Of a stretch of 64,000 nt of DNA, positions 61,634 to 64,000 are shown piece after piece. The notes under the pieces were generated by a model. The model was not told the origin of the DNA. It saw only the letters and a list, made by a program, of their open reading frames with translations, and did no database searches. The stretch spans positions 3,321,001 to 3,385,000 of the forward strand of contig NZ_CP041405.1 in NCBI RefSeq assembly GCF_007066085.1. Reading direction: 5' to 3'. Within the stretch, counting starts at the first letter, position 1. The number at the start of each line of letters is the position of its first letter. Position numbers and translations under genes: made by a program. This DNA is from Paenibacillus thiaminolyticus. GTDB taxonomy: Bacteria > Bacillota > Bacilli > Paenibacillales > Paenibacillaceae.

Positions 61634-62956
61634 ATGGTATTCGATTATCATTTGGCACCAAAGATACTCCGACAATATTTACAAGAGGAACTTATCAAGA
61701 AGGGATGGAAGCAAAAAGAGTTGGCGGAAGCCACGGGAATCGATTGTTCTACCATTAGCAACATTTTCAACCACAAGCAATCCCTTATGCTTCCCCAGCT
61801 TCACGCTATCAATCAAGCTTTCGGATTGCCGAACGATGCCTTCTATGAACTGTTTATCGGGGAATGCTGCGGTGAGAGCGGACGGTTCAAGCCAGAGAAG
61901 ACGAGCGATTTCCTCCTTCATTGCATCCCGGTCGAAAAATACGAAATTGTTAAACAGGTTGTTCAGCTTCTTCATGAAGAATCAAGCCGTTCCAAAATGA
62001 TCGACACTACCTTCAAGATTGCGGAGTATATTTTTCAATCGGGAAAACGCAACTACTCCCTCCCCTTCTACGATATCATCACCCAGAACGGATACAGTCG
62101 AAGCGAGAAATTGGCGATCTCTTATTACAGAAGATTTCTTATCCTCAGAGACCTGGATACTTGCGAGGCCGGTAACGAAGCCTTATGCCAGTTGATTGAA
62201 TATTTGCCATTACTGCCGGATGACATCAGACTTGATGCCTACTACCGTATCCTAACTTTTTATAATGTAGTAGAGAACTGGCCAAAGTTGCACCTGTATG
62301 CCCAAGAACTAAGGAGCATTGCGCTGGCCGAAGGACATAATGACTATTTGGCTGAAAGCTGGTTGTATGAATCATTTGCCTTAAAAGGCATGAAAAATTT
62401 CGAAAGCGCCTTAAAAGCAACGGTAGCATATAGGGGATATGGGGAGCATTACGCGTGGTTATCCAAATGCAACGAACTTTATATTTCTATTGAAATGAAG
62501 CAAATCAAACCAATAGAAGAACTTATGGGCATGCTGAAGGGCCCTCAAGCGCTTCTTGTGCTCCCGGTTGCCTTGGACACTTACCTCGACAACAATGCGC
62601 TCATCGAAGCGAGAGGATACCTGGAACAGTATAAAAGCTATGTGGACGACCTGTTATCCCGAGAAGATCCGTTTCATTTGAAGCATAAACTGCGGCTGAC
62701 GCAAGCTTTGAGTCAGTACTATTTCAGATGCGGACAATATGATACCGGGTTCGATTATAACGCTGATTCTTTGAAAATGGCGTTGAATCTTAAAAATATG
62801 CATCGTGTAGGAATGGCCGTCGTTTCATTTCAAGAACATGAAAAGCAGGCTTCAGCAGAACATAAGGAACGTTTCATAAGTATCCTATTGAGTATGAATC
62901 ACAATATCCATGGCTCTTTTCTTGTTCAGTATTACAGGAGTGTCGTCGCTGGGTGA
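61634..62956 (+). CDS. HTH regulator with helical (TPR-like) ligand domain
   Basis: 440 residues. An XRE-type helix-turn-helix covers about residues 10-62 (GWKQKELAEATGIDCSTISN). The remaining ~370 residues are helical hairpins with Tyr/Leu spacing, as in RNPP-type peptide-sensing regulators (PlcR, NprR, AimR); this likeness is structural and inferred. AAGGGGG is 9 bases before the ATG. The gene is AT-rich compared with its neighbours. Its stop TGA overlaps the GTG of a 24-codon ORF. Confidence 0.85.
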   Translation: MVFDYHLAPKILRQYLQEELIKKGWKQKELAEATGIDCSTISNIFNHKQSLMLPQLHAINQAFGLPNDAFYELFIGECCGESGRFKPEKTSDFLLHCIPVEKYEIVKQVVQLLHEESSRSKMIDTTFKIAEYIFQSGKRNYSLPFYDIITQNGYSRSEKLAISYYRRFLILRDLDTCEAGNEALCQLIEYLPLLPDDIRLDAYYRILTFYNVVENWPKLHLYAQELRSIALAEGHNDYLAESWLYESFALKGMKNFESALKATVAYRGYGEHYAWLSKCNELYISIEMKQIKPIEELMGMLKGPQALLVLPVALDTYLDNNALIEARGYLEQYKSYVDDLLSREDPFHLKHKLRLTQALSQYYFRCGQYDTGFDYNADSLKMALNLKNMHRVGMAVVSFQEHEKQASAEHKERFISILLSMNHNIHGSFLVQYYRSVVAG

Positions 62957-63027
62957 TATTGGAGGTGGTTGGCTCGTCCACGATATTGGAGGTGGTTGGT
63001 AAGCAGAGAGCTGCTCCAGTTGCTTAG
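62953..63027 (+). CDS. Possible 24-residue peptide ORF coupled to the HTH regulator
   Basis: GTG at 62953 overlaps the regulator stop (GTGA); 24 codons to TAG. The peptide has ILEVVG twice, because the 18-mer GATATTGGAGGTGGTTGG is repeated with a 27-base (nine-codon) period. AGGAG is 12 bases upstream of the GTG, a little far. No signal peptide. It lies before the transcript's terminator. It could be a leaderless signal peptide for the regulator or simply a duplicated stretch. Confidence 0.3.
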   Translation: MILEVVGSSTILEVVGKQRAAPVA

Positions 63028-63068: not shown

Positions 63069-63104
63069 ATGAGCCGTGAAACGATTTCGACGGCTCATTT
63101 TTAT
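63069..63104. terminator. Bidirectional terminator between the HTH regulator and toxN
   Basis: ATGAGCCGT-N12-ACGGCTCAT, followed by TTTTTATTG on the plus strand and ATTACTTTATG on the minus strand. On the minus side it directly follows the TAA at 63101, the end of the extended toxN frame. Confidence 0.85.
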
Positions 63105-63235
63105 TGTTGGTTACTATTATTTTCGCTGCTGGCAGGTGCTGCTTCTTCGGCAGTGACAGGTGATATGGTGCCGAATTGCAAGGCCATTTGTTCTAATAAG
63201 AGAAAATCGCAGCAGCGGGCATTTAATTTGGGTTG
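63101..63235 (-). pseudogene. In-frame 3' continuation of toxN after the TAA
   Basis: Immediately after the TAA at 63236-63238 the same reading frame stays open for 44 codons to a TAA at 63101, just before the terminator. It begins QPKLNARCCDFLLLEQM. The CCDF..LE segment is the conserved C-terminal helix of ToxN/AbiQ toxins, so this is the original tail of the toxin. Whether it is ever translated depends on readthrough. Confidence 0.8.
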
Positions 63236-63649
63236 TTACCGGCTCTTCACGATTTGATACAATCGTTTTGCTTTTTTCTTGATTGCTTCTTCATTTTTCC
63301 GAACATACAACATTTGTTTCATCAATAATTGCCGATACCGATGATCGGGTTCACGCGCAATATGAATCGGAATGATGACAGGCGGAAGGACGGGAATCAT
63401 ATTATTCAAATTAATAATCCCCAATCTTCCACGCTCTATTTTAATGACATCAGGTGCGGTGTCAGCTATAAACTCGTGTTTTGGTTTAGGAGAAGACAAG
63501 GGAGCATAATAAGAAAAATTATTTACCTCAAGCAGGATTCCAACAAACTTCCGATTTTGAGCCGGATCCTTACTGACAACTCTATCGAATTCTCGAAGAT
63601 AATCTAAATACACAGATTGAACTCCACAAATTTTTATTGTTGTCCTCAT
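63236..63649 (-). CDS. ToxN/AbiQ-family type III toxin, truncated by an in-frame stop
   Basis: 137 residues up to TAA. Family marks of this endoribonuclease: YLDYLREFDRVV near the start, KFVGILLEVNNFSYYAPLSS followed by PKPKH (Ser52, Ser53 and Lys55 match the active-site T/S-S-x-K of ToxN), RLGIINLNNMIPV, and the helix LLMKQMLYVRKNEEAIKKKA. Intact relatives have about 165-180 residues and end with a CCDF helix, which here lies after the stop. AGGAG is 7 bases before the ATG at 63649. The antitoxin RNA and terminator lie directly upstream, the standard type III order. Confidence 0.88.
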   Translation of the reverse strand: MRTTIKICGVQSVYLDYLREFDRVVSKDPAQNRKFVGILLEVNNFSYYAPLSSPKPKHEFIADTAPDVIKIERGRLGIINLNNMIPVLPPVIIPIHIAREPDHRYRQLLMKQMLYVRKNEEAIKKKAKRLYQIVKSR

Positions 63650-63660
63650 TTCAATTCTCC

Positions 63661-63690
63661 TAAAAAAATAAGGGTAGCATAAGCTACCCA
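63661..63690 (-). terminator. Terminator between antitoxin RNA and toxN
   Basis: GGGTAGC-TTAT-GCTACCC followed on the minus strand by TTATTTTTTTA. In type III systems this leaky terminator sets the RNA-to-toxin ratio. Confidence 0.9.
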
Positions 63691-63703
63691 TTCTACCTTT
63701 TTT

Positions 63704-63781
63704 CGTCCCTCACTTATACGGCAGAGGATCTCCGGCTTCTTTCGTTCCTCACTTATACGGTAGAGGATCTCCGGCTTTTTC
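63704..63781 (-). ncRNA. ToxI-type antitoxin RNA: two tandem 39-nt repeats
   Basis: Two full units (63704-63742 and 63743-63781) differing at four positions, plus a short partial unit toward the terminator. On the minus strand each unit has an A-rich junction (GAAAAAGCC / AAAGAAGCC), where ToxN-type enzymes cut. Each can form an H-type pseudoknot: CGG pairs with CCG and, interleaved, CCTC pairs with GAGG. Known type III antitoxins have 34-41-nt repeats of this kind. Confidence 0.88.
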
Positions 63782-63807
63782 AGGAACAATCATGCCCCTT
63801 AAGCTTC

Positions 63808-63836
63808 ACTTTAAGGGATACATTGGAAGTTGTCAA
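63808..63836 (-). promoter_or_regulatory. Promoter of the type III toxin-antitoxin locus
   Basis: Minus strand TTGACA (63831-63836), 17 bases, TAAAGT (63808-63813). The start should be ~20 bases before the first antitoxin repeat. ACTTAAGG-like symmetry (TTAAAGTGAAGCTTAAGG) surrounds the -10. Confidence 0.75.
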
Positions 63837-63905: not shown

Positions 63906-64000
63906 CTATTTCACCGCACCCGCGGCAATGCCCTTAATAATATACTTCTGCGCGAAAATATAGAAGATGACAATCGGGATGATCGTGAGCGTCAGCCCGG
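63906..64000 (-). CDS. Carbohydrate ABC transporter permease (C-terminal end only)
   Basis: Last ~31 codons of a MalG-type permease: PIVIFYIFAQKYIIKGIAAG followed by AVK and TAG. This ending is typical of sugar permeases. The rest lies beyond the window. It shows that a second sugar importer flanks the accessory segment. Confidence 0.8.
   Translation of the reverse strand, partial: GLTLTIIPIVIFYIFAQKYIIKGIAAGAVK

Follow-up and report, generated by a model that had tools for sequence, protein, structure and literature searches.

A chromosomal type III toxin-antitoxin locus of the ToxIN family lies near the right end of a 64,000-nucleotide stretch of the Paenibacillus thiaminolyticus genome, and its toxin gene is interrupted by an in-frame stop codon. 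The stretch, called the window below, spans positions 3,321,001 to 3,385,000 of contig NZ_CP041405.1 (G000:C1:3321001-3385000; G and L numbers denote genomes and loci) in a genome assembled as one contig of 6.6 Mb. On the minus strand, a promoter-like site is followed by two 39-nucleotide (nt) repeats, a terminator, a ribosome site and a ToxN-type gene. We read the locus as belonging to the ToxIN family but with its toxin already lost or in the course of being lost, and consider it probable that this locus, in a Paenibacillus near P. dendritiformis, has been caught not long after the toxin was interrupted. A preliminary description, made from the letters alone, had called the locus complete. 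The promoter, the near-identical repeats and the terminator with its T-run were all found where it had placed them, and the ToxN/AbiQ motifs that it quoted are present in the product, but the toxin frame contains a TAA codon, and the conserved C-terminal part is missing from the product.

Profile searches bear out the assignment to the type III ToxIN/AbiQ group that had been proposed from these motifs. The 137-residue piece encoded before the stop matched Pfam PF13958 with E=5.4e-38 (131 bits where the cut-off is 25, profile positions 2 to 135 of 159) and the PADLOC AbiQ model with E=1e-34. Its closest relatives in the PDB are ToxN and AbiQ (2xd0, 7d8o, 4ato and 4glk), which have the ToxN fold in common with it, and the repeats upstream carry a pseudoknot of the ToxI type (see below). 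Note that, because the interrupted toxin passes the Pfam cut-off so easily, a tally of working systems based on profile matches alone can include dead toxins.

The toxin had been described as a product of 137+44 residues. Both pieces do lie in one frame, but they are separated by the TAA that follows codon 137, and no uninterrupted full-length toxin gene is present. The distal 44 codons, which gave no Pfam or PADLOC match when searched alone, hold a conserved RCC..LLE motif in columns that align among relatives, and they correspond to two C-terminal helices in the structure model of an intact relative. An intact copy is carried by genome G009 (Paenibacillus sp. 2.1), and intact proteins of 181 residues (93% identical) and 182 residues (92% identical) are in the database; three database fragments of 76 to 99 residues (P0062, P0075 and P0099) may be further broken copies. 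The ratio of nonsynonymous to synonymous substitution rates (dN/dS) against the intact G009 copy was 0.11 upstream of the stop and 0.13 downstream, values that average over both lineages and date the stop only loosely. From these values, the distal piece has been constrained for much of the time since the split from G009, and the interruption looks recent. No support was found for programmed stop-codon readthrough, at which no test was aimed.

The two adjacent 39-nt copies are 92% identical (Tandem Repeats Finder (TRF) score 143). They are not a chance occurrence, since they form the only tandem repeat with a period of 30 to 60 nt and at least 90% identity in the 64 kb, and none was found in five mononucleotide shuffles. 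The interleaved stems CGG/CCG and CCUC/GAGG are common to all sources from which units were compared: the window, three other members of its genus, three genomes from elsewhere in the family, and one plasmid each of Sutcliffiella and Fusobacterium. In an alignment of 18 distinct units, which leans towards structure because the units were chosen by eye as one family and some units of the loci were left out, standard pairs filled 94.4% of cells (87.1% after shuffling, with 0 of 500 shuffles as high; 46-61% when the stems were slid). Changes on both sides of a pair were seen in 12 cells versus 2.8 in shuffled alignments, and the covariation score was 0.345 versus 0.193. Two of the five measures did not rise above shuffles, namely pairs with a double-sided change (3 versus 2.1) and further pair types (8 versus 8.0). 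The evidence for the pseudoknot is carried by stem 2, with double-sided changes at three pairs; in stem 1 all variation is one-sided. When single units were folded without pseudoknots, they did not clearly outdo their shuffles (z -1.1 and -0.3), which is expected of a pseudoknot yet lends it no support in itself.

On these grounds the repeat is a predicted H-type pseudoknot of the ToxI family. With Rfam 15, three matches to the array were obtained at E<=10, all under the gathering score (best E=0.22, PrrB/RsmZ), and the arrays of five loci that lack a toxin likewise gave no match at the gathering score. The unit is slightly longer than the 34-36 nt of studied systems (PMC5086642), and 39-nt units also adjoin full-length or annotated toxins at L002, L014, L017, L018 and L019. 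The suggestion that the repeat may be a new antitoxin variant is weakened by these similar 39-nt repeats before full-length ToxN in other genomes of the family, by others beside an annotated ToxN on the Sutcliffiella plasmid, and by a 37-nt version on the Fusobacterium plasmid.

The same chromosomal site was compared in 19 genomes of the genus, the source genome among them, and PF13958 matches were found in three. Strong matches to the array DNA were found in five (E<=4.4e-34); the next best E-value was 0.0017, and at the loose limit of this search all 19 genomes gave some match. The closest named neighbours at the locus are Paenibacillus sp. 2.1 and P. dendritiformis G25-126. The former has three units and an intact toxin, the window two units and a toxin with a stop, and the latter (G008, L003) one unit and a toxin that lacks its first ~32 codons and carries a frameshift. 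G007 (three units) and G016 (one unit) retain only a few dozen bases of the toxin. The left deletion end appears by eye to be common to G007, G008 and G016, so these are not counted as three independent losses. The toxin is damaged or lost more than once in this lineage, the RNA antitoxin lingering.

A wider sample of 394 Paenibacillaceae genomes gave 15 PF13958 matches in 14 genomes. Eleven of the matches span at least 155 of the 159 profile positions without a stop, and four are broken (the window, G008, G043 and G168). A covariance model of the repeat matched 39 genomes at E<=0.1 under strict filters with at most 15 candidates scored per genome, a design that more divergent arrays can escape. 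Only the 12 strong matches (E<=1.5e-9) were counted, since the best of the remaining 27 has E=0.005 and these look like chance matches. Five of the 12 arrays precede a full-length toxin (G009, G026, G093, G184 and G222), two a broken one (the window and G008), and five have no toxin adjacent to them (G007, G016, G299, G300 and contig 20 of G314). In G299 the first codons of the toxin apparently remain (by eye), and G314 carries a full-length ToxN on another contig than its toxin-less array. Three or more units are present at 5 of 5 strong arrays with an intact toxin versus 1 of 7 without one (p=0.015), and across all 20 ToxN or array loci the corresponding counts are 10 of 11 versus 2 of 9 (p=0.005), p-values that are too small because of shared ancestry. 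The unit counts were made by eye and take in divergent last units; TRF copy numbers are lower at several loci. Genome G389 has two ToxN loci (L027 and L022), one of them with 47-nt repeats.

By analogy with studied ToxIN systems, the repeat RNA of intact relatives would be transcribed and then cut by ToxN in its A-rich linkers. The cut repeats would bind back as pseudoknots and hold ToxN inactive, and phage infection would free the RNase; the locus in the window may thus once have served in phage defence. Its array, promoter and terminator look intact, whereas translation would stop at codon 137. As this is before the two conserved C-terminal helices, the 137-residue protein is probably unstable or inactive, and any RNA made would be without a working partner.

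Alternatively, the repeats might serve now, or serve in toxin-less relatives, as a solitary antitoxin RNA against ToxN that arrives on plasmids, phages or other elements. The five strong arrays with no toxin beside them favour this, as does a comparison of G007 with G016. From the -35 site to the terminator, 6 of 143 aligned sites differ (the alignment covers one repeat unit, as G016 has one), against 14 of 66 in the upstream spacer and, at four-fold sites, 27 of 135 in the permease gene and 37 of 145 in the regulator gene (p from 2e-4 to 2e-7 for array versus flanking sites). However, the toxin remnant and the intergenic DNA adjoining the array have changed about as little (3 of 42 sites, p=0.43 versus the array), and sliding windows show patchy divergence along the locus, of the kind that local recombination leaves. 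Selection for keeping the arrays is possible and is not claimed, because the remnant is about as conserved as the array, for all the apparent signal against the flanks. Four of the five toxin-less arrays hold only one or two units, and in that of G314 one stem pair is broken (by eye). There was no sign of a phage-borne mimic of the repeat, since phage records showed no resemblance to the array DNA at E<=0.01 and a single degenerate pattern of the repeat core had no exact match in viral contigs. A distant ToxN is encoded in two phage records. Literature searches returned nothing on type III ToxN in Paenibacillus, nor on truncated or pseudogene ToxN with ToxI. For solitary type III antitoxins no title appeared among the matches listed, in a search blurred by 'ToxI' and 'ToxIN' also matching 'toxin'; the phrase 'orphan antitoxin' does occur in papers such as PMC10790755. 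We regard a solitary antitoxin role as unlikely, and the broader proposal, that toxin-less ToxI arrays of Paenibacillaceae are working solitary type III antitoxins disarming incoming ToxN and that the window captures the birth of one, as decidedly unlikely.

It is quite improbable that the locus works as it is, with the 137-residue protein an active shortened ToxN held by a two-unit antitoxin. The distal segment is conserved in aligned relatives and constrained (dN/dS 0.13, as above), unlike a dispensable tail, Pectobacterium ToxI needed 2.5 repeats (PMC5086642), and the toxin is damaged or lost in three of the four neighbours with an array. Two units do fall within the workable range given there for AbiQ (at least 1.8 of 2.8). 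A full-length ToxN occurs with just two units at L023, so this number by itself does not mark a dead system, and L007 and L009 also show two (counted regardless of toxin completeness). The residues named for catalysis (PMC8860590) all lie within the first 137 codons and the core models well, the truncated piece still giving a confident structure model; by its sequence, the product may retain residual activity. These last points weigh against a recently inactivated toxin, as do the loose dating of the stop, a dN/dS of 0.35 (on 9 changes) against the broken G008 copy, the absence of an NCBIfam match for the 137-residue piece at E<=0.01, and the possibility of a wrong base in a single assembly. 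An assembly or sequencing error within an ordinary intact ToxIN is very improbable. In its favour, the frame runs open in both directions apart from the stop, the analysis covered one genome of the species, and no near-identical copy stood among the 103 proteins found (closest 93% identical). Against it, the stop is a substitution rather than a homopolymer indel in a one-contig assembly, and lesions or deletions of other kinds are plain in three array-bearing neighbours.

As a type III locus this one is ordinary; the interest of a ToxIN member losing its toxin lies in the comparative series. One chromosomal site in one genus is found in intact, interrupted, half-deleted and toxin-free states, and the RNA antitoxin outlasts the protein. 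The series makes it possible to test whether toxin loss leads to array shrinkage and whether leftover antitoxin RNAs protect against incoming ToxN.

Coordinates of the locus are collected in Table 1. Promoter-like sites in general occur at about chance level in the window (5 found versus 3.6 expected). That of the array recurs in four related loci as TTGACA or TTGATA with TAAAGT, TAAACT or TAACGT. A Rho-independent terminator is predicted between array and toxin, as is typical of the type III family.

Table 1. Elements of the interrupted ToxIN locus (window positions)
Element	Position	Strand	Basis
Promoter-like site, sigma-70-like (-35 TTGACA, 17 nt, -10 TAAAGT)	63808..63836	-	Motif; retained in four related loci
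Antitoxin (ToxI) repeat unit 1, 39 nt	63736..63774	-	Tandem-repeat search; pseudoknot stems kept
Antitoxin (ToxI) repeat unit 2, 39 nt	63697..63735	-	Tandem-repeat search; pseudoknot stems kept
Terminator hairpin, 7 pairs and T-run, between array and toxin	63662..63689 (hairpin and T-run 63689-63672)	-	Predicted; fold z -3.7
toxN frame, 137 codons and in-frame TAA	63236..63649	-	PF13958, PADLOC AbiQ; ribosome site AGGAGA upstream (by eye)
Distal toxN segment, 44 codons and stop, same frame, beyond TAA	63101..63235	-	RCC..LLE motif

Upstream of the array, a gene resembling a sugar ATP-binding cassette (ABC) transporter permease occupies 63915-64000 and continues beyond the window on the minus strand (translation judged by eye). 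Adjoining the toxin and convergent with it is a 440-residue helix-turn-helix regulator (PF01381), with a weak, sub-cutoff match to an AimR model (E=0.004). A small open frame of 30 codons (62910-63002, plus strand), read in a different frame and ending in two copies of DIGGGW, overlaps the 3' end of the regulator gene; together the two span 61634-63002 on the plus strand. These copies are encoded by two exact 18-nt repeats, GATATTGGAGGTGGTTGG, at 62955-62999 (plus strand); G008 has three. In G007 and G016 the peptide frame begins further upstream with MKK (by eye), and the window, G008 and G009 are without ~24 bases there. From their sequences, regulator and small peptide resemble the RRNPP/Alo type of peptide quorum-sensing pair. 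Such pairs are known in Paenibacillus (PMC7425212), and the string GGGW was not found in that text.

The closest known system is the ToxIN locus of Paenibacillus sp. 2.1 (L002/L012, G009), which occupies the same chromosomal site with the same promoter, terminator and neighbouring permease-like gene. Its 39-nt repeat is near-identical and its toxin 92% identical over 137 residues, but it has three repeats and an uninterrupted toxin of ~180 residues. In the Fusobacterium plasmid array (L015, 1460-2530), three units are near-identical and the fourth is divergent, with stem-2 arms that nonetheless pair (by eye), and the ToxN beside this array is annotated at 873 bp, which exceeds all listed homologues (at most 234 residues). 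The repeat core CGG..CCGTATAAGTG of the Sutcliffiella horikoshii plasmid NZ_CP020881 and of the Fusobacterium polymorphum plasmid NZ_CP084160 is closely similar to that of the window, with the same pseudoknot and periods of 39 and 37 nt, respectively. Unlike the window, these loci are plasmid-borne, with three and four units and a toxin annotated without interruption. The ToxIN systems of Pectobacterium atrosepticum, E. coli and Bacillus thuringiensis and Lactococcus AbiQ share with the window the order of array, terminator and toxin, the pseudoknot repeats, the ToxN fold and the active-site residues. The window differs from them in its 39-nt repeat (36 nt in Pectobacterium, 34 in Bacillus and 35 in AbiQ; PMC5086642) and in its interrupted toxin frame.
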